Origin: Planctomycetota bacterium
Lineage (GTDB): Bacteria; Planctomycetota; Phycisphaerae; Phycisphaerales; SM1A02
Length of the DNA: 55,241 bases
Assembly: GCA_016872835.1 (NCBI GenBank)
Contig: VGYX01000015.1
Location: forward strand, 1 to 55,241
Direction: 5' to 3'
The notes under the pieces were generated by a model that searched no databases, was not told the origin of the DNA, and saw only the letters and a list, made by a program, of their open reading frames with translations. Both the position numbers and the translations under genes were made by a program. How positions within the stretch are numbered: position 1 is the first letter of the stretch; each line of letters starts with the position of its first letter. This document shows positions 1 to 54,375 of this stretch, in pieces.

Positions 1-283
1 CGAGCCCCCCCCCTCCCCCGCGCCCGCGCCCGCCCCCGACCCCGCCCCCGCCCCCGCGCCCGCGCCCGCTCCCGAGCCCGCGCCTGCGCCCGAGCCCGCG
101 CCTGCACCCGAGCCCGCGCCGACACCGCCGCCGTTCGAGCCACCGCCGGAACCCTCGCGCGCGCCTGAACCCACGACCGAACCAGCTCCCGTACCGGCGA
201 AGAAGCCCGCTTCCGAGCCGCCGTTCGAGCCTCCACCGGAGCCGGATCAGCCCAAGGGAAGCCCCTCCGACGCGCGGGTCTGA
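1..283 (+). CDS. C-terminal end of a proline-rich protein (partial)
   Basis: The reading frame that starts at base 2 is open to a TGA at 281-283 and gives about 93 residues. The first half is a low-complexity run of Pro-Ala and Glu-Pro dipeptides. The second half holds two copies of a PPFEPPPEP-like block separated by a linker with two lysines. The start lies outside the window, so the fold and function of the main domain cannot be told. Pro/Ala/Glu tails of this kind occur on secreted, envelope-spanning or ribosome-associated proteins, and nothing here chooses between them. The strictly maintained frame in the non-repetitive end supports real coding. Confidence 0.6.
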
Positions 284-18725: not shown

Positions 18726-20192
18726 CTAGCGCCGATTCACTGCCGCCATCGCGCGGTCGTAGACCGACTCGACCTTCGCCGCGGCGCCATCCCACGTGAT
18801 GCCGCGCACCTCGAAGTAGCCGCTGTCGCGCAGCGTGCGCTGCAGCGGGGGGTGGCGCAGCACGGCCACGATCTTGTTGGCCATGTCGTCGACATCCCAG
18901 AAGTCGCACTTCAGCACGTTGGTCAGGATCTCGCCCACGCCGCTCTGACGGCTGATGATCACCGGCACCTTGTGTCCCATCGCCTCCAGTGGCGCGATGC
19001 CGAAGGGCTCGCTCACGCTGGGCATCACGTACAGGTCGGCGATGCCGAACACCTTCTGGATGTCCTTGCCGCGCAGGAAGCCGGTGAACAGCACCTTGTT
19101 GCCGATGCCCATCGCCGCGGCCATCTCGATCATGCGCTGCGCCTGGTCGCCGTTGCCGGCCACCACGAACTTCACGCCGTCCATCACGTCGAGCACGCGC
19201 TTGGCCGCCGCGATGAAGTACTCCGGGCCCTTCTGCATGGTGATGCGGCCAAAGTAGAGCACCACCTTCTCGCTCTGCTTGATCGGCTCTATGCCCGCGG
19301 CCCTTGGGTCCAGATCGACGCCGTTGTAGACCACGTCGATCTTGTCGGGGTTCACGCCGTAGCGGTTCACGCACAGGTTGCGCGTGAGCATGCTCACCGT
19401 GATCACGCGCACGGCGCCATGCATCCCACGGCGTTCGATGTTGTAGAGCGGCTGGTTCACGTGCTCGCCGCTGCGGTCGAACTCGGTGCTGTGTACGTGC
19501 ACCACCAGCGGCTTGCCGCTCATGCGCGCCAATGCCAGACCGGCCGGATAGGTCAGCCAGTCATGCGCGTGGATCACGTCGAACTGCAGGTCGCGAGCCG
19601 CCGCCACGCAGAAGCGCGCATAGCGTTCGCTCTCGGCGATCAGGTCTCCACCATAGTCGCTGGTGCGTGCGTGGAACATTTCCGCGCCCCGGCCCGCGGA
19701 CTCGGGCACCGCCTCCTGCACGGCGATCTCGATGAGCAACTGGGTTCGAAGCTCGGCTGGAATGTGATCGGGAAGCCTCAGCACGCGGCGCACGGTGGCG
19801 CTCTCGAGCGCCAGACGCACCAGCGTGTGCGGCAATGAGCTGCTATAGGGCGCTGGCGCCGTCATGGGAAGGCCGAGCGTGGTCACGCGGTGCAGGTTGC
19901 GCTGGATCATTTCCAGGACCTCCGCGGCGCGCGGCAAAGGCCCGGTGAGGTACGCTTCGCGGACCTTGCACACGGCCTCGGGAGGTGGAAGTGATGGATG
20001 TGCCAGAGTGGACGCGGGGCTGACCAGGTTCACGTGACTCGCGAATCCCGAGTCGACATGCTTGGGCAGCACGAAGGTCACGTCGCACTCGCGGCGATCG
20101 AGCGCCCTCGTCAGGCCAAAGCACGCCGTGCCAAGTCCTCCCGAGATGAACGGGGGGAATTCCCAGCCCAGCATGAGGACCTTGCGCGGCAC
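18726..20192 (-). CDS. Glycosyltransferase family 4 (glycogen-synthase-like)
   Basis: A 488-residue GT-B glycosyltransferase. The N-terminus KVLMLGWEFPPFISGGLGTA has the glycine loop of the starch/glycogen-synthase-like branch. FDVIHAHDWLTYPAGLALA is the N-domain active-site segment, and TEFDRSGEHVN follows. The C-domain has VLYFGRITMQKGPEYFI, GNGDQAQRM, FTGFLRGKDI and the E-x7-E motif SEPFGIAPLEAMGHKVPVI. Between about residues 60 and 190 there is a longer variable region than in short GT4 enzymes. Donor and acceptor cannot be told. The GTG start at 20192 comes one base after the stop of the small upstream gene, so the two are co-transcribed. Confidence 0.9.
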   Translation of the reverse strand: MPRKVLMLGWEFPPFISGGLGTACFGLTRALDRRECDVTFVLPKHVDSGFASHVNLVSPASTLAHPSLPPPEAVCKVREAYLTGPLPRAAEVLEMIQRNLHRVTTLGLPMTAPAPYSSSLPHTLVRLALESATVRRVLRLPDHIPAELRTQLLIEIAVQEAVPESAGRGAEMFHARTSDYGGDLIAESERYARFCVAAARDLQFDVIHAHDWLTYPAGLALARMSGKPLVVHVHSTEFDRSGEHVNQPLYNIERRGMHGAVRVITVSMLTRNLCVNRYGVNPDKIDVVYNGVDLDPRAAGIEPIKQSEKVVLYFGRITMQKGPEYFIAAAKRVLDVMDGVKFVVAGNGDQAQRMIEMAAAMGIGNKVLFTGFLRGKDIQKVFGIADLYVMPSVSEPFGIAPLEAMGHKVPVIISRQSGVGEILTNVLKCDFWDVDDMANKIVAVLRHPPLQRTLRDSGYFEVRGITWDGAAAKVESVYDRAMAAVNRR

Positions 20193-20193
20193 G

Positions 20194-45244: not shown

Positions 45245-47371
45245 TCAGGGTGTGCCGGAGCGGGGCGGGCGAGGCTTGCCCTTGCGCTTGCCGCGCGTCC
45301 CAGGCATGCCGGCTCGGCTTGGGCCACCCCGCTCGTCACGCGGATCCGACGCCAGCTGCACCAACCCATCACTCTCCGGCATCGCCTTCACCTTCTGCAG
45401 CCGATCACGCAGCGTGGCTGCGCGCTCGAACTCCAGATTGCCGGCGGCCGCGAGCATCTCGCGTTCGAGTTCCGTGATCAGCTCGGCGCGATCCCAGGAC
45501 TTCTCGTTGCGCACACCCCCGGCTTCGCGCACCAGTCGGCTCGCCGCGACTTCCTGCTCGATGCCGCGACGGATCGCCTTCTGAATGGTCTCGGGCGTGA
45601 TGCCGTGCGTGGCGTTGTAGGCCAGCTGCTTCGCGCGACGACGCTCCACCTCGTCGATCGCGGCCTGCATCTCGGGCGTGACCTTGTCGGCGTAGAGCAC
45701 GGCCATGCTGTTGGCGTTGCGTGCCGCGCGGCCCATGGTCTGGATCAGGCTCGAGGTGCTGCGCAGGAATCCCTGCTTGTCCGCGTCCAGGATGCACACC
45801 AGACTCACTTCCGGCAGATCCAGCCCCTCGCGAAGCAGGTTCACGCCCACAAGCACGTCGAACACGCCCTCGCGGAGGTCGCGCAGCAGTTCCAGCCGAT
45901 CCAGCGTCTCGATCTCGCTGTGCAGGTAGCGCACGCGCAGGCCCTTCTTGTCCAGATGCGTGGTCAGGTCCTCGCACAGACGCTTGGTGAGCGCGGTCAC
46001 CAGCGTTCGTTCGCCCAGCGCCGCGCGCTGTCGTGCGCGCTCGGTCAGGTCGGGCACCTGATCGCGCGCCGGCTGCAGCAGGATCGGCGGATCCACCAGT
46101 CCGGTCGGGCGGATGACCTGTTCGGCCACCACGCCTTCGCAGCGCTCAAGCTCGTAGGGTCCGGGCGTGGCGCTCACGAAGATGCACTGCGGCACGATCG
46201 ACTCGAACTCCTCGAACTTCAGCGGGCGGTTGTCAAGCGCCGCGGGCAGCCGGAACCCGTGATCGACCAGCGTCTCCTTGCGCTTTCGGTCCCCGAAGTA
46301 CATGCCGCGGATCTGCGGCAGAGTCACGTGGCTCTCGTCGATCACCACCAGCCAGTCACGCTCGCCGCGCTCCGGCACGTGACGGAAGTAGTCGAGCAGG
46401 CAGAAGGCGCGCTCGCCGGGCGCCCGGCCGTCGAAGTAGCGGCTGTAGTTCTCGATGCCGCTGCAAAATCCCGTCTCCTCGATCATCTCAAGGTCGTACT
46501 TCACGCGACCAAGCAGTCGCTGGGCCTCGAGCAACTTGCCCTGGTTTCGCAGTTCCAGCACGCGCGCGTCAAGATCGTCGCGGATCTGCTGCGTCGCCTT
46601 CAGTCGCTGCTCCTCGGGCATCACGTAGTGCACGGCCGGGAAGATGAGCGCCTTCGACTCCTCGCTCAGCAGCTCGCCGCTGGTCGCGTCGATCACCTCG
46701 ATGCGCTCCACCTCGTCGCCGAAGAGCCCGATGCGCAGCGCCGTCTGCTCGTAGGCGGGGAAGATCTCGATGCTGTCGCCGCGCACGCGGAAGTTGCCGC
46801 GCTGCGGCGCCGCCTCGTTGCGCTGGTACTGCATCGCCGTCAGGTCGCCGAAGAACGCGCGGCGGTCAAGGCGCTGTCCGACGTGCAGGTGAATGACGCG
46901 GTTGCGGTATTCGGTGGGACTGCCGAGGCCGTAGAGGCAGCTCACGCTGGTCACCACGATCGTGTCGGGTCGCGACAGCAGGGCGCTGGTGGCGGCCAGT
47001 CGAAGCCGATCCAGATCGTCGTTGCGGCTTGCGTCCTTCTCGATATAGATGTCCCGCTGCGGGATGTAGGCCTCGGGTTGGTAGTAGTCGTAGTAGCTGA
47101 CGAAGTAGTTGACCGAATTGCGGGGAAAGAGCTCCCGCATCTCCTCGTAGAGCTGGGCGGCAAGCGTCTTGTTGTGGCTCACCACCAGCGCAGGTCGGCC
47201 CGTGCGCTCGATCACGTTCGCGATGGTGAAGGTCTTGCCGGTGCCAGTGGCGCCCAGCAGGGTCTGCCAGGTCTTGCCGGTCTCGACGCCCCGGACCAGT
47301 TGCTCGATCGCCTGAGGCTGGTCGCCCATGGGCCGGAAGGGGCTGCGGAGTTCGAAACGGTCCGGCGTCAC
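45245..47371 (-). CDS. uvrB: Excinuclease ABC subunit B
   Basis: A 708-residue helicase-like damage-verification protein of nucleotide excision repair. Walker A is LLGATGTGKTFTIANVIE. The beta-hairpin region SYYDYYQPEAYIPQRDIYIEKD is diagnostic. VIDESH is the DEAD-like box; FVSATPGPYELE, LTKRLCEDLT, YLHSEIETLDRLELLRDLR and QTMGRAARN are further helicase motifs. The UvrC-binding UVR domain is at about residues 640-675 (ELITELEREMLAAAGNLEFE). The GTG at 47371 follows TAGAGT by six bases. A basic tail (RGKRKGKPRPPR) ends it. Confidence 0.96.
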   Translation of the reverse strand: MTPDRFELRSPFRPMGDQPQAIEQLVRGVETGKTWQTLLGATGTGKTFTIANVIERTGRPALVVSHNKTLAAQLYEEMRELFPRNSVNYFVSYYDYYQPEAYIPQRDIYIEKDASRNDDLDRLRLAATSALLSRPDTIVVTSVSCLYGLGSPTEYRNRVIHLHVGQRLDRRAFFGDLTAMQYQRNEAAPQRGNFRVRGDSIEIFPAYEQTALRIGLFGDEVERIEVIDATSGELLSEESKALIFPAVHYVMPEEQRLKATQQIRDDLDARVLELRNQGKLLEAQRLLGRVKYDLEMIEETGFCSGIENYSRYFDGRAPGERAFCLLDYFRHVPERGERDWLVVIDESHVTLPQIRGMYFGDRKRKETLVDHGFRLPAALDNRPLKFEEFESIVPQCIFVSATPGPYELERCEGVVAEQVIRPTGLVDPPILLQPARDQVPDLTERARQRAALGERTLVTALTKRLCEDLTTHLDKKGLRVRYLHSEIETLDRLELLRDLREGVFDVLVGVNLLREGLDLPEVSLVCILDADKQGFLRSTSSLIQTMGRAARNANSMAVLYADKVTPEMQAAIDEVERRRAKQLAYNATHGITPETIQKAIRRGIEQEVAASRLVREAGGVRNEKSWDRAELITELEREMLAAAGNLEFERAATLRDRLQKVKAMPESDGLVQLASDPRDERGGPSRAGMPGTRGKRKGKPRPPRSGTP

Positions 47372-47383: not shown

Positions 47384-48416
47384 TTGGCCCTGAGCCGTCC
47401 CGCGCTGCGGAACGCGCCCTCCGGAGAGGGGGTGGGGCCAAGAATTCCGACCCCCGGGGCACGCTTTTGAAAATTTCTCCGGAGGTCGCCTTGCGAAGGT
47501 CCGAAATCGTGGCTTCGAGCCCCGGGGTCCGGCTTCCCTCCGGTCACTTCCCATTCACTCTTGTTCGTTCCCAGTTCACTCCCAACGACCTGATCTCAGG
47601 GTGTCGTGGTCGAAGTCGCTCTGCTTGAGGCGTTGCGCAGCCTCGCAGCCCGGCGCGTCAGGTTGCAGCCTGGTGGTCAGCGTGGTGCCGGCGTCAAGCG
47701 CCGCGGCGCTGATCGGCCTGGCAAGCTTGGTCACGACCCGTCGCCGTCGCGCCTGAGAGGCGCTCGCGCAAACCAAATCCGTGTTGTCTGGACAGCGGCC
47801 TCGAAAGGGATGCCGCTGTTCGTTTGCGGACCCTGCGCGCGTGAGAATGTCTCGAAGCGGTCCTGAAAAACTTGCCATTGCGACCGGGAAGGCGCACCTT
47901 CTCGTTCGCGGACTCCGTAGGTGGGTCCGGGAGAAAACAGTCGTGTCGAAGCACCAAAAGCACAAGTTGTTTCAGCAGTTTCTCGTCGCGGCCTCGAGCC
48001 TTTGCGTGGGCATGATCCTTGCCCGCGCGATGGGCTTCTGAGCTTCGGGCGCTGACCTTGAGTCGTCGATCTGTGGGATCGCCCTTCCTGCTCCGCATGA
48101 AAGGCGACCCCCAGAAAGTTGATTTCTCGGGGTCACTTGGAGTGTCCGTCAACCCGCTCGAAAGGGAACGAGCGACGGTTTGTGCCTGCGTTGAGCCCGA
48201 ATCCCGTTCCAACCTGAAGAAAGAGAATCGCCGCTGTCGTCCCTCACCGAATTGAGGGCCTTTGCAGGCCACTTCCGAAGCACGCAACAGCCAATACCTA
48301 CGACCCCAGGGCGTAGCCATGGCCGAATTCAGACCTCCCCACGCTTGGAACACGCAAAACGGGCGCGCAGCCCTTCGTGGAGTTCTCTGGATTTCCAACG
48401 AAACCAAGTTTGGGTT
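47384..48416. other. 1-kb stretch without a convincing gene, with several hairpins
   Basis: The only long gene-free region of the window, and more AT-rich than the genes around it. Open frames exist (for example 237 codons at 47694-48407 minus and 86 codons at 47781-48041 plus), but none starts with a ribosome site or box of the local type or resembles a known protein. Inverted repeats are dense: an outer pair 47767-47773/47822-47828 encloses an eight-pair stem 47792-47799/47812-47819. Others are 47909-47915/47923-47929, 48106-48117/48123-48134 (one mismatch) and 48155-48160/48169-48174. It could be a structured RNA, a decayed gene or a mobile-element remnant. Confidence 0.5.
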
Positions 48417-51017
48417 TCAGGCTCGACCCGTCAGCAGGGCGCGAGGACTCTCGGAGAGCAACTTCCGTGCGGCAGGAAGGGCCGAGGCCAAGGCGAGCGC
48501 GATCACAAGAGCGGATCCGATCGCCCAGGCCAGCAGAGGGAACACGGCGTCAAGTCGGAGGCCGGCCAGTGACTCGAACAGCAGCCGGCCCGCCCACGCC
48601 AGTTCCCAACCCAAGCCCGTGCCCGCAATGATCGCGGTGACTCCAAGCAGCAGTGCCTCGCCCAGCACCAGCCCGAGAAGGGGTCGCAGGCCTGCGCCGG
48701 TGGCGCGAAGCACGCCGAGTTCCTGACGGCGTCCCTGCACCTGTGCGGCGATCACGCTGCCCACGCCCAGGCACGCCACCAGCAGTGCCGAGAAGGCCAC
48801 GCCACCGGTCACGCCCCGGACCAGTCGGCCCACATCGTCGATGGCACCTCGGATCGTTCGGCCGCTCGCGAACACCGCACCCGGCACCATTTCGCTGATG
48901 CGCGCAGCAAGCGCCTCATCATCGTCCGAGCCGCCTTCGGGGCCAAGATCGAGTTGCATCAGCACGGCGTCGCGTACGCCGAAGGTGCGCGCGACGGTGT
49001 CCAGATTCAGGAACACGCAGCTCATGGCGTGCTCCATGTAGACGCTGCGGATGCCAAAGACCTGCGTGGCCACGTCGAGACCCGCGCTGGACACCACGCC
49101 CACGATCTCGAAGGAGGCCTTCGACTTCGGTGCCTGCAGCTCGATCGTGTCGCCGACCTCCAGCCCGCGCGCGGTCAGAAACTGCTCGGCCACCAGCGCG
49201 CCGGTGCCCGCGCGAAGTTTCGGCAGCGCGGTCTCGGGCGTGCCCTGAATCCATTCCAGGCGATTCATCTTCAAGAAGCCATCAGGCTCAAAGCCCACGC
49301 AGATCACGTTGGGTGGAGCCAGCGCGTGCACGCCAAGGCCCGCCCCACCTGCCACGCGCAGCGGCAGGTAGCCGACGGCGGCGCCCGTGCGAACACCGGG
49401 CAGGCTCCGCAGTCGCGATTGGTCCGAAGGTGTCAGGCCGCTTGGGCGCATCACGAAGGCGTCACCGAAGCGCACGCGTTCGCGCACCTGGCGCAGCATG
49501 CCCTCGCTGTGGCTCCATGTCGTCACCAGCACGCTGAGTCCCATCATGAGCGCGCCCGCGGTGAGCCCCAGTCGATACGGAGTTCGCGCCACGCTGCCGC
49601 GCAGCAGTCCAGGCGGCAGGCGCAGCGCACGCGTCAGCGGTGAAGCAAGCAGCGCGGTGACCCACTGCATCAACGGCACGCACAGCAGGAACCATCCCGC
49701 GTGCGCGGCCGCCAAGCCTCCAATCGCATGCATCCAGAAGCGTCGCTGCGGATCCTGCACCAGCGTCACGATGCCGGCCTCAAGGCTTGCAAGGCCGATG
49801 CCGAGCGCCAGACAGACCCATGGGCCCCACGCCCTCGGTGCACGTCCGCGCCGCCGAAGCGCCTGCAGCGGGCTGGTCTGCGAGGCGTTCCACGCGGGCA
49901 GTGCCGAACCAAGCACGCCGCTGCCGATCGACGAGCCCACCGCAAGCGCGACACCCTCCCAGCTTGGCACGAGTCCAAGCGGCAGGCTTGCGCGGAACCA
50001 GAGCGACACGCCCCACGCACCAAGCAATCCCAGTGGCACGCCCAGTACCGAGGACGCGGCGCTGAGTCCCGCACCCGCAAGCAGGGGGCCCGCGAAGAGT
50101 TGTCCACGTGAGGCGCCCAGGCATCGCAGCGTGGCGAGTTCGCGATCGAGTTCCGCCACCGAGGTCGTCATGCCCACACCCACGATGAACGCGCCCGCGA
50201 GCATGGCGATGGTGCATCCAAGCACGAAGCCGAAGCGGCCCGCCTGCACCTGTCGGTCCATGCCGCTGGTAGCCATCTCGGCCGGTTCAATCAGCATGCC
50301 CTCCGGCACGCGCGAGGCCTGCATCTCGCACCACGCGGTGGCGTTGGTGTCCGGCGCCAGCACGATCGCGACCTGCGTGGCCTCGTTGCCACGGCCGCTC
50401 GCCTCCGCGAGCGTGCGTCGATCGAGTTCCACCATCGGCCGCTGCAGCGCGCCCAGCAGCGGGCGATCCATCACGCCGCTCACGGTCAGGTCGATCGGCT
50501 TGCCAAGCCGCACCACGCGCACGCGCGTTCCCGGGCGCGCGTCGAGCGACTTGGCGGTCATCGGATCGAGCGCGATTTCCGCAGGTCCCTGCGCCCGGCG
50601 CCCTTCGCGCATCGGCAGCCCCTCGAACCGCGTGTCGGTGGCAGGATCCACGCCGCGCGCCTGCGCGGTGGCGCGTCGTACGCGACCCTGCTCGTCGCGG
50701 TCGCCATCGGCGCGGGTCAGCGTGATCGAGCCCGTCAGTCGCGCCTGCACGCCGCTCACACCCGGCCAACGCGTCGCCTGTTCCGCGATCGAGGCCTCGA
50801 ACGGTGCGCCAGCCTGCTGCACCAGTCGCACGTCGACCGCGCCCATGAGTCGCGTGAGACGCGTCTCTAGGTTCGTCTGCGCCGTCTGCAGTCCGGTGCT
50901 GACCGCCGTCACCAGCGAGGTGGCGAGCGCGATGGACGTGGCCAGCAGCGCGGTTCTAGCGGGACGCGCGGAGAGTGTCCGCCACGCGAACCGCCAACTG
51001 GGAAGGATCCATTGCAT
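48417..51017 (-). CDS. ABC transporter permease, FtsX/LolC-E (MacB) family
   Basis: An 866-residue permease with a first membrane helix (TALLATSIALATSLV), a soluble periplasmic domain, and a membrane block around residues 265-420 (GFVLGCTIAMLAGAFIVGVG, then ELATLRCLGASRGQL). A second periplasmic domain follows, then a last block (FSALLVACLGVGSVIAAQ, RRQELGVLRATGAGLRPLLG). The duplicated R-x-x-E-L-x-x-L-R-x-x-G-A motif is diagnostic of FtsX permeases that work as mechanotransmitters. It would act with the ATPase encoded just upstream, perhaps in lipoprotein or lipid extraction. Its ATG at 51017 lies inside that gene, giving a 62-base overlap. Confidence 0.88.
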   Translation of the reverse strand: MQWILPSWRFAWRTLSARPARTALLATSIALATSLVTAVSTGLQTAQTNLETRLTRLMGAVDVRLVQQAGAPFEASIAEQATRWPGVSGVQARLTGSITLTRADGDRDEQGRVRRATAQARGVDPATDTRFEGLPMREGRRAQGPAEIALDPMTAKSLDARPGTRVRVVRLGKPIDLTVSGVMDRPLLGALQRPMVELDRRTLAEASGRGNEATQVAIVLAPDTNATAWCEMQASRVPEGMLIEPAEMATSGMDRQVQAGRFGFVLGCTIAMLAGAFIVGVGMTTSVAELDRELATLRCLGASRGQLFAGPLLAGAGLSAASSVLGVPLGLLGAWGVSLWFRASLPLGLVPSWEGVALAVGSSIGSGVLGSALPAWNASQTSPLQALRRRGRAPRAWGPWVCLALGIGLASLEAGIVTLVQDPQRRFWMHAIGGLAAAHAGWFLLCVPLMQWVTALLASPLTRALRLPPGLLRGSVARTPYRLGLTAGALMMGLSVLVTTWSHSEGMLRQVRERVRFGDAFVMRPSGLTPSDQSRLRSLPGVRTGAAVGYLPLRVAGGAGLGVHALAPPNVICVGFEPDGFLKMNRLEWIQGTPETALPKLRAGTGALVAEQFLTARGLEVGDTIELQAPKSKASFEIVGVVSSAGLDVATQVFGIRSVYMEHAMSCVFLNLDTVARTFGVRDAVLMQLDLGPEGGSDDDEALAARISEMVPGAVFASGRTIRGAIDDVGRLVRGVTGGVAFSALLVACLGVGSVIAAQVQGRRQELGVLRATGAGLRPLLGLVLGEALLLGVTAIIAGTGLGWELAWAGRLLFESLAGLRLDAVFPLLAWAIGSALVIALALASALPAARKLLSESPRALLTGRA

Positions 51018-51729
51018 CGACGGAGAGACTCCCGGCCACGCGGCCGTCCTGCAGCACATGCACCTGACTGCAGTGCACCGCGGCTTGAGGTTCATGTGTG
51101 ATCATCAGCACCAGCATGTTGCGTTGACCCGCGATCTCGGCGAGCAGTCGCCAGAGGCGGTCGCTCGTCTGGCTGTCCAGGTTGCCGGTGGGCTCGTCGG
51201 CCAGCAGGACGGGTGGCTCCTGCAGCAGTGCGCGTGCGATCGCCACGCGCTGCTGCTCTCCACCCGAGAGCGCGTCGGGCCGGTGATCCATGCGGTCGCC
51301 CAGCCCAAGTTCCCGCAGCAATTCCTCGGCGCGGGGTGCTGCATCCGCGTGCGCCTTTCCATCCAGTGTGGCGGGAAGCGTCACGTTCTCCAGCGCGTTG
51401 AGTGTGGGCAGCAGATTGAAGCCCTGGAACACCACGCCGGAGCGGCGGCGGCGATGCAGCGTGAGCTCGTGCTCGCTCAGCCCCGCCAGTGACGCGCCGC
51501 CCACCTCGATCTCACCCCGATCGGCTGCGTCCAGGCCCGCAAGCAGGTGCAGCAGCGTGCTCTTGCCACTTCCTGAGGGCCCCATGATCGCGTGGAAGCC
51601 CGGGCCCTCGATGTCGAGGTCCACCCCGCGCAGGGCGTGCACATCGCGGGCCCCCATGCGGTAGGCCTTGTGCACCCCACGCACGCGCACCCTGCAGGCG
51701 CGCGACGCGGCGGGATCAATGGACGGCAT
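50956..51729 (-). CDS. ABC transporter ATP-binding protein, LolD/MacB type
   Basis: A 257-residue ATPase. [20 protein letters not shown] is the A-loop region, and Walker A is [16 protein letters not shown]. The Q-loop is [19 protein letters not shown], the signature [17 protein letters not shown], Walker [12 protein letters not shown] and the H-loop LMITHEP. These match the LolD/MacB/YtrE group that pairs with FtsX permeases. The ATG at 51729 overlaps the gcvH end by 14 bases; an in-frame ATG at 51753 is an alternative. Confidence 0.9.
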
Positions 51730-52991: not shown

Positions 52992-53704
52992 GCGGTCCCG
53001 GACTGGTCATCACGATCGATGGTCCGGCAGGAACGGGAAAGAGCTCCGTCGCGCACCGCCTGGCGCAGCGGCTGGGCCTGGAGTTTCTGGACACCGGCGC
53101 CATGTACCGCGCCGCCGCGCTGCTGGCGCTTGAACAGGAACTTTCGCCGGACGGCGGTCCGGTGTTGGCGGCCGCGGTCGAGCGAACGCCTCCGCGATTC
53201 GACTGGTGCAGTAGTCCGCCGCGCATGATGCTTGGAGGCCGCGACGTGAGCGAGCGCATCCGCGAGGCCGATGTGACGGGTATCGTCTCGCGCGTGGCCG
53301 CATGTCTCGAGGTACGGCGCCAGATGGTCGTGTCGCAGCGTGCCGCCGCCGCCGCGCATCCGCGGCTGGTGACCGAGGGCCGTGATCAGGGCAGCGTGGT
53401 GTTCCCCGATGCGCCGCTTCGCATCTACTTGGATGCCGCGCCGCATGTGCGCGCGCGCCGGCGGGCGGAGCAGTTGCGCGCGTCAGGGCGACCGGCCAGC
53501 GAACGCGAGATCCTGCAGGGCATCCTGGAGCGCGACCGGATCGACTCCGGCCGCAGCGAGGGTCCGCTGCGCGTGCCCGTCGGGGCCGAGTGCGTGGACA
53601 CGAGTGAACTCGATCTGGATGGGGTGGTGGAGCGGCTGGAGGCGCTGGCGCGCGCGCGACTGGGCGAACGCCTGGCGGTGCCTGCCGCGGCGAGCCGCCC
53701 GTGA
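52988..53704 (+). CDS. cmk: Cytidylate kinase
   Basis: A 238-residue kinase that phosphorylates CMP and dCMP. The P-loop is ITIDGPAGTGKSSVAHRLA (residues about 8-26). LEFLDTGAMYRAAAL, the CMP-binding RDVSERIREADVTGIVSRVA, LVTEGRDQGSVVFPDAPLRIYLDA and the lid region RDRIDSGRSEGPLRVP are all typical. The family usually has EGRDIGT where this protein has EGRDQGS. It overlaps both neighbours by four bases. Confidence 0.94.
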   Translation: MSGPGLVITIDGPAGTGKSSVAHRLAQRLGLEFLDTGAMYRAAALLALEQELSPDGGPVLAAAVERTPPRFDWCSSPPRMMLGGRDVSERIREADVTGIVSRVAACLEVRRQMVVSQRAAAAAHPRLVTEGRDQGSVVFPDAPLRIYLDAAPHVRARRRAEQLRASGRPASEREILQGILERDRIDSGRSEGPLRVPVGAECVDTSELDLDGVVERLEALARARLGERLAVPAAASRP

Positions 53705-54375
53705 CCGGTGGCGACCTGGCCCGGCGTGCGCCCGGCAAGACGCGGATGCAGGGCTTCTGGTGGGATGTCGCGGAGCGCACCGCCGAACTGATCGTCCGAA
53801 CGCTCTGGACGGTCCGCGTGGACGGCGTGCACCTTGTGCCGCGCACCGGTCCGTTCATCGTGGTGAGCAATCACGAGAGCTATCTGGATCCGGTGCTCAA
53901 CGGCATCGCCGCGCGCGATCGGCAGGTGGGTTATCTGGCCAAGAGCGAACTCTTCTCGTTCGGCCCCTTCGGCCGGCTCATCGCCTCGTTCGGCGCGATT
54001 CCGCTGAAGGAGCGCTCCGACATGGCGGCCATGCGCGTGGCCATCGCCGAACTGCAGGCGGGCCGATGCATCGTGATCTATCCCGAGGGTGGTCGCTGCA
54101 GCGCCGGCGAGATCGAGACCTTCCAGCGCGGTGTGGCGCTGATCGTGCGGCGCACGAAGGTGCCGGTGGTGCCGATGGCGATCGAGGGCGCGCACCAGGT
54201 GTGGCCGCCCACGCGCAAGTTGCCCAAGCCGCTGGGCGGGATGTCCGTGCTGGTGGGCGCGCCGATCGCCGCCGAGGCCTTGCTTGCCGAGCCCGACGAC
54301 GGCATGGGACGTCTGGAGTCCGAGGTGCGTCGGTTGCAGTCCGTGCTGCGCGAGCGGGAGCGTGCGCGTGGCTGA
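53701..54375 (+). CDS. 1-acyl-sn-glycerol-3-phosphate acyltransferase (PlsC family)
   Basis: A 224-residue acyltransferase, probably making phosphatidic acid from lysophosphatidic acid. The catalytic H-x4-D motif is NHESYLDP (H58, D63). AKSELFSFGPFGRLIASFGA, the glycerol-phosphate-binding YPEGGRCSAG and VPVVPMAIEGAH follow in family order. A single N-terminal amphipathic or membrane-touching helix (TAELIVRTLWTVRV) is present. The GTG at 53701 overlaps the cmk stop as GTGA. The cmk-plsC pairing is common in bacteria. Confidence 0.9.
   Translation: MTGGDLARRAPGKTRMQGFWWDVAERTAELIVRTLWTVRVDGVHLVPRTGPFIVVSNHESYLDPVLNGIAARDRQVGYLAKSELFSFGPFGRLIASFGAIPLKERSDMAAMRVAIAELQAGRCIVIYPEGGRCSAGEIETFQRGVALIVRRTKVPVVPMAIEGAHQVWPPTRKLPKPLGGMSVLVGAPIAAEALLAEPDDGMGRLESEVRRLQSVLRERERARG

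Follow-up and report, generated by a model that had tools for sequence, protein, structure and literature searches.

A conserved 32-codon gene for a putative membrane microprotein beside the remnant of a PEP-CTERM-like gene in a planctomycete

The interval between uvrB and an FtsX/MacB-type permease gene on this planctomycete contig is best explained as a small-gene locus beside the wreck of a neighbouring gene, a reading to which we give a probability of about 0.72. The interval was supposedly empty, yet sequence comparison indicates that it almost certainly holds a real gene overlooked owing to its size. The encoded microprotein is best read as a member of a new family, a single-helix membrane peptide that would probably pack onto a larger membrane protein through a stripe of small residues. 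An apparent ‘gene desert’ in a packed genome would thus hide a gene below the size that ordinary gene callers detect. Throughout, the window is the whole 55,241-nucleotide stretch analysed, which is contig 15 of a genome of 2.39 Mb (98.9% complete); features are collected in Table 1.

Table 1. Positions of the features in and around the uvrB–permease interval, in window coordinates
Feature	Position	Strand	Evidence
uvrB	45245..47371	-	Pfam UvrB_inter, UvrB, UVR
Remnant of PEP-CTERM-like gene, 3′ end, ...SLVVSVVPASSAAALIGLASLVTTRRRRA-stop	47637..47756	+	63% identity to G004 protein
Stem-loop, 8-pair stem, probable terminator of lost gene	47792..47819	+	Counterparts in sisters; z -2.71
Promoter-like CTTGCC, spacer, CACCTT	47871..47900	+	Pattern shared with relatives
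GGGAG, Shine-Dalgarno-like, 9 nt before GTG	47929..47933	+	Sequence, relatives
Microprotein gene, 32 codons + TGA, GTG start, MSKHQKHKLFQQFLVAASSLCVGMILARAMGF	47943..48041	+	Conservation, pN/pS, AlphaFold2 model
Stem-loop 3′ of microprotein gene (12-nt arms, 92%), probable terminator	48106..48134		Fold, arm changes
Dyad CCGTC-AACC-CGCTCG-AAAGGGAA-CGAGCG-ACGG	48146..48178		Arm changes versus G004, G010
FtsX/MacB-type permease	48417..51095	-	Pfam FtsX 8e-22, MacB_PCD 1.2e-17

The uvrB–permease interval

An earlier note on this DNA had described about 1 kb without a convincing gene. This holds for long ORFs, none of which is convincing across the 1,045 bp, but not for the conserved 32-codon gene; the latter, on the plus strand, bears out the note's suggestion of an orphan gene on either strand. 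The interval is also more AT-rich, as the note had it (G+C 61.6% versus 68.1% for the window). Genes elsewhere were said to be packed within tens of bases. Other gaps in the window measure 1,292, 819, 623, 620, 474, 438, and 411 bp, contrary to that description; these sizes are upper bounds because they come from a crude GC-frame caller that misses genes (e.g., an ABC-ATPase ORF partly fills the 620-bp gap).

None of six longer ORFs (237, 129, 78, 86, 51, and 154 aa) in the interval matched a Pfam family above cut-off, and PHROGs gave nothing convincing for three of them (237, 129, and 78 aa). Across the whole window, Rfam gave no match at gathering score, a tRNA and tmRNA scan found none, and consensus scans for sigma-70 promoters and for terminators (the latter with a 5-T rule) likewise found none. 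DNA comparison of the interval with 60 relatives revealed similarity in two patches: 47651-47760, which marks the 3′ end of the PEP-CTERM-like gene, and 47973-48194, which starts inside the 32-codon ORF. Separately, two of the stretches that the GC-frame caller leaves empty, 52992-54283 (1,292 bp) and 19375-20193 (819 bp), may hold missed genes.

Conservation of the microprotein gene

A 30-sequence profile detects full-length relatives of the microprotein, at E 9.6e-7 or lower, in 45 of the 181 family genomes. Altogether 47 genomes pass E 0.01; G128 and G136 were dropped as their matches cover part of the model only. The members belong to six genera, g1 (12 of 16 genomes), g18, g43, g59, g6, and g60, with one strong match per genome. 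Four of them, G012, G001, G004, and G010 (75%, 66%, 53%, and 50% identity, respectively), carry the gene in the same uvrB-adjacent place. When the window was compared with G012 by blastn, the ORF was the sole alignable part of 1,033 bp.

The stop codon falls one residue past the same conserved glycine in all 45 members, and the stop-to-stop frame is at most 35 aa in seven of them, so a longer protein at this locus is ruled out. Counting from the C-terminal end, A-17, G-10, A-6, R-5, and G-2 are invariant among the 38 distinct sequences (43 members) and the last residue is F or L, which gives the C-terminus A-x6-G-x3-A-R-x2-G-[F/L]. Two members lacking a start at 30–33 codons (G020 and G181) were left out of the pN/pS, residue, and upstream-pattern comparisons, and G225 was additionally left out of the residue and upstream-pattern comparison.

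The gene differs from that of its nearest relative, G012, by 20 synonymous and 10 non-synonymous changes (pN/pS 0.16), and its pN/pS against G001 is 0.28. All 100 pairs of members with equal length and 70–95% identity had pN/pS below 1 (median 0.21). Values of 0.69–0.92 were obtained for the window gene against g18 members, where synonymous sites are saturated. Judged by these substitution patterns, the ORF is under protein-level purifying selection, in the lineage of the window too. It is scarcely credible that the whole kilobase is a decayed spacer with nothing functional in it: a PEP-CTERM-like gene is demonstrably broken in the interval and its inverted repeats are at chance level, but this selection on the 32-codon gene, the shared stop position, and the distribution over 45 of 181 genomes all contradict it.

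Sequence searches of Pfam, NCBIfam, and the PDB gave no match to the microprotein, nor did 50,697 phage records. PHROGs returned nothing for the window peptide; for one relative there was a sub-threshold holin match (E 0.076). Samples of 400 genomes from the order and 392 from the phylum yielded no full-length homologue beyond the family. Partial matches appeared in 13 non-family genomes of the order sample (best E 0.0029) and nine of the phylum sample (E 1.1e-4 to 0.0088). Five of the latter nine were inspected and rejected, being helices within other frames that lack the ARxxG end; a further one, L177, shows X. As far as these searches extend, the microprotein matches no family in the libraries and appears only in one planctomycete family. 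The titles and abstracts listed by literature searches revealed no paper on the 32-residue peptide, a result that does not prove the peptide unpublished. The 45 members form a precise set for testing the role of such peptides in a poorly known bacterial group. The gene is also carried by a record labelled Singulisphaera (L150), a label that looks doubtful.

Start signals

The microprotein gene combines protein-level selection on a short ORF with start signals of its own. A Shine-Dalgarno (SD) tetramer lies within 16 nt upstream of the start in 29 of 31 members across g1 (12/12), g18 (8/8), g43 (8/10), and g60 (1/1), versus none of 12 in g59. The window gene starts with GTG; nearly all relatives use ATG. 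Further upstream, the pattern CTTG[AC]N-15..18-NANNNT is found in 30 of 42 members versus 1.9 expected from shuffles, a comparison in which the pattern was framed after inspecting the upstream sequences and the relatives are not independent. The pattern is absent from seven g1 members whose microprotein gene is located elsewhere. A sigma-70 scan returned no site at the promoter-like sequence of the window.

The g59 loci (L153-L161 and L163-L165) have no SD, and in eight of the 12 the CTTG element lies 38–39 nt before the ATG. At this distance the transcript would start at the ATG itself, suggesting that the g59 orthologues are probably expressed from leaderless mRNAs. With an SD start in the three larger genera and a leaderless start in g59, orthologues would have switched their mode of translation start. 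Such a switch, if real, would make the family a natural experiment in translation-start evolution within one gene.

A PEP-CTERM-like gene lost in this species

In G010, G004, and G001, a protein of 211–217 residues ending in VPxP, a hydrophobic stretch, and RRRR is encoded between uvrB and the microprotein gene, whose strand it shares. The window retains the last ∼38 codons of this gene and lacks the first ∼80%. The remnant corresponds to residues 178–215 of the 216-aa G004 protein (E 2.1e-7), and its DNA reaches a local-alignment score of 77 versus a shuffle maximum of 28; the rest of the gene is not alignable in the window. The rest of the window genome yielded no full-length copy, only ten other short matches that are mostly tails of the same type. 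As the alignments show, the gene was deleted or has decayed in this species and is full-length in the three sisters.

The earlier note had considered a decayed insertion. The decay was correctly suspected and affects the 3′ end of the PEP-CTERM-like gene; no insertion sequence is present. A mobile repeat was also rejected on DNA comparison, in which the genomic matches (C8 and C13) turned out to be further tails of the PEP-CTERM-like kind and not copies of an element.

The remnant and the sister genes resemble PEP-CTERM surface proteins, as these are characterized in excerpts of PMC1569441, in their VPxP or VPAS motif, hydrophobic stretch, RRRR end, and genomic exosortase, which the window genome encodes (PF09721, E 1.3e-47). 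They differ in that all their scores fall under the curated cut-offs: the G010 protein reaches 11.9 of 20.7 bits for PF07589 and 13.0 of 16 for TIGR02595, and the G004 protein has no PEP-CTERM Pfam match. At this locus, G004 and G010 have a further PEP-CTERM-like gene that belongs to the same family and is convergent (L021 1798-2433 and L022 6141-6779, both on the minus strand). The window shows no trace of it at 48201-48416 (scores 22 and 21 versus shuffle maxima 27 and 28).

Stem-loops and putative terminators

The interval had been called hairpin-rich, a description that the counts do not sustain. Perfect inverted repeats (loop 3–60) with stems of at least 6, 7, and 8 pairs number 17, 6, and 3, versus shuffle means of 16.6, 4.9, and 1.1, and 50, 38, and 11 of 100 shuffles reach these counts. 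A nested pair of stems does lie where the earlier note placed it, with outer arms 47767-47776/47819-47828 (90%) and inner arms 47792-47802/47809-47819 (91%). As a unit, the pair has z -1.49 on the plus and -1.13 on the minus strand (folds as good arise in 16 and 31 of 200 shuffles). When the stretch was compared with its sisters, 26, 24, 91, and 133 of 200 shuffles were as good for G004, G010, G012, and G001, respectively. We rejected the outer stem as unsupported; only the inner stem has counterparts, in all three sisters that keep the PEP-CTERM-like gene.

Taken by itself, the inner stem is equalled by 4 of 200 shuffles, and a stem of its length arises in 11 of 300 shuffles of the 186-bp stretch. 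It lies 35 nt past the remnant's stop and 123 nt ahead of the microprotein gene. In G004, G010, and G001, respectively, the hairpin has a stem of 11, 11, and 10 pairs; its distance from the stop of the PEP-CTERM-like gene is 48, 55, and 28 nt, and the microprotein gene follows 126, 124, and 118 nt further on. The tails that follow are T-rich in G004 (GTTGTTTTT) and G010 (GTTGCTTTT) and weaker in G001 and the window (TCGTTTG). This placement suggests that the inner stem is probably the terminator of the lost PEP-CTERM-like gene, in which case the tail and terminator of a gene have outlasted the rest of it at this locus.

A second stem-loop begins ∼64–65 nt past the microprotein stop (z -2.97 on the plus and -3.66 on the minus strand), with no T run after it. 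Both stem-loops are G+C-rich stems shortly past a stop codon. The inner arm of the second, AGAAA/TTTCT, is CGAGG/CCTCG in G004 and G010, with three of five pairs changed on both sides and none broken. The dyad beyond it has an identical loop in G004 and G010, with two of six inner pairs changed on both sides and none broken. Both arm comparisons involve three genomes, two of them nearly identical, and a covariation test would need more than these two lineages. The dyad pattern is exact in three of 41 genomes (window, G004, and G010); G021 gives a fourth match with three mismatches. By itself the dyad folds no better than shuffles (78 of 200 as good on the plus strand, 31 on the minus). The simplest reading of the second stem-loop is that it is probably the terminator of the microprotein gene; the dyad may have an RNA or protein-binding role.

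As to the structured RNA suggested in the earlier note, there is no Rfam match in the window, the two stem-loops behave like post-gene terminators, and the outer stem falls away. We consider it quite unlikely that the conserved entity is a non-coding RNA in which the small ORF is incidental. The compensating arm changes within 48106-48178 are what such an RNA would show, but in G012 only the ORF aligns, its changes there are mostly synonymous, and the 3′ element is found in 3 of 41 genomes versus 45 of 181 for the ORF.

Neighbourhood of the microprotein gene

In 17 of the 45 members (seven from g1 and all ten from g43), a gene for a 79-aa two-helix protein lies 116–167 nt downstream on the same strand, an arrangement that would suit a regulatory leader peptide encoded by the small ORF. 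We find this role very improbable: the 79-aa gene is not so placed in the other 28 (it is convergent in two g6 members), the window genome has its homologue on contig 14 (L136), and the conserved feature of the ORF is a membrane helix, not a codon run. In g18, one flank of the microprotein gene is a metallophosphoesterase gene (Pfam) and the other presumably an acetyltransferase-like gene. No neighbour is constant across the 45 members, which indicates that the microprotein gene moves among contexts, outside any single operon, and context does not point out a partner. The 79-aa family (MKGFEIVKGWARELVDIM...; e.g., L090 1367-1606 and L096 4466-4705) has homologues in 23 of 61 relatives and no Pfam or PHROG match; NCBIfam gave a sub-threshold match only (AmaP, E 0.055).

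Predicted structure and proposed role

AlphaFold2 models the microprotein as one helix spanning residues 3–30 (mean pLDDT 82.5, pTM 0.35). A 17-residue stretch has a mean hydropathy of 1.87–2.59 across the 38 distinct sequences; by hydropathy and predicted helix, the hydrophobic segment is long enough for a membrane span. The invariant or near-invariant small residues A-17, S/A-14, G-10, A-6, and G-2 are spaced 3–4 apart on one face of the helix. A helix face of small residues suits tight packing against another helix, and small-residue stripes are common in single helices.

We infer that the peptide sits in the cytoplasmic membrane as one predicted helix, with its K/R/H/Q-rich N-terminus probably inside and Arg-5 placed at the membrane edge. 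The stripe would pack against a larger membrane protein, of which the peptide would be a small subunit or modulator; the spacing of the small residues makes such packing the most likely role. The partner gene need not adjoin the microprotein gene, because neighbours differ between genera.

Type I toxin peptides (e.g., Hok, TisB, and Ldr) are likewise short and hydrophobic with a positive N-terminus. That the microprotein is such a membrane toxin, silenced by antisense or structured RNA, is nonetheless unlikely. Stable stem-loops lie nearby and one relative has the sub-threshold holin match, but no stem-loop element is conserved past three genomes or matches Rfam, and no antisense partner was found. 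Each genome has one strong match, the amino-acid sequence is strictly conserved over six genera down to its last residues, and neither the phage records nor the toxin families in Pfam and NCBIfam gave a match.

Docking on a larger membrane protein is in keeping with known peptides of this size, which mostly act by joining such proteins according to excerpts of PMC11539335; this precedent also makes a docking subunit or modulator the most likely role. We regard the docking mechanism for this putative single-helix membrane peptide as reasonably probable. More specifically, these freshwater planctomycetes could have a membrane complex of their own in which the microprotein is a standing small subunit, with orthologues that have switched their translation-start mode; we consider this somewhat unlikely. 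The same excerpts name KdpF, AcrZ, MgrB, MgtS, MntS, and SafA as small bacterial membrane proteins with a modulating role in larger complexes (PMC11539335). As described there, these are like the microprotein in having ∼30–50 residues, one predicted helix, a small gene of their own, and no catalytic domain. The microprotein is unlike them in matching no solved chain and no Pfam or NCBIfam model, in its strict C-terminal pattern, and in having been seen in one planctomycete family only. The GMSC smORF catalogue, in its excerpted description (PMC11364881), lists conserved, unannotated small genes of exactly this sort.
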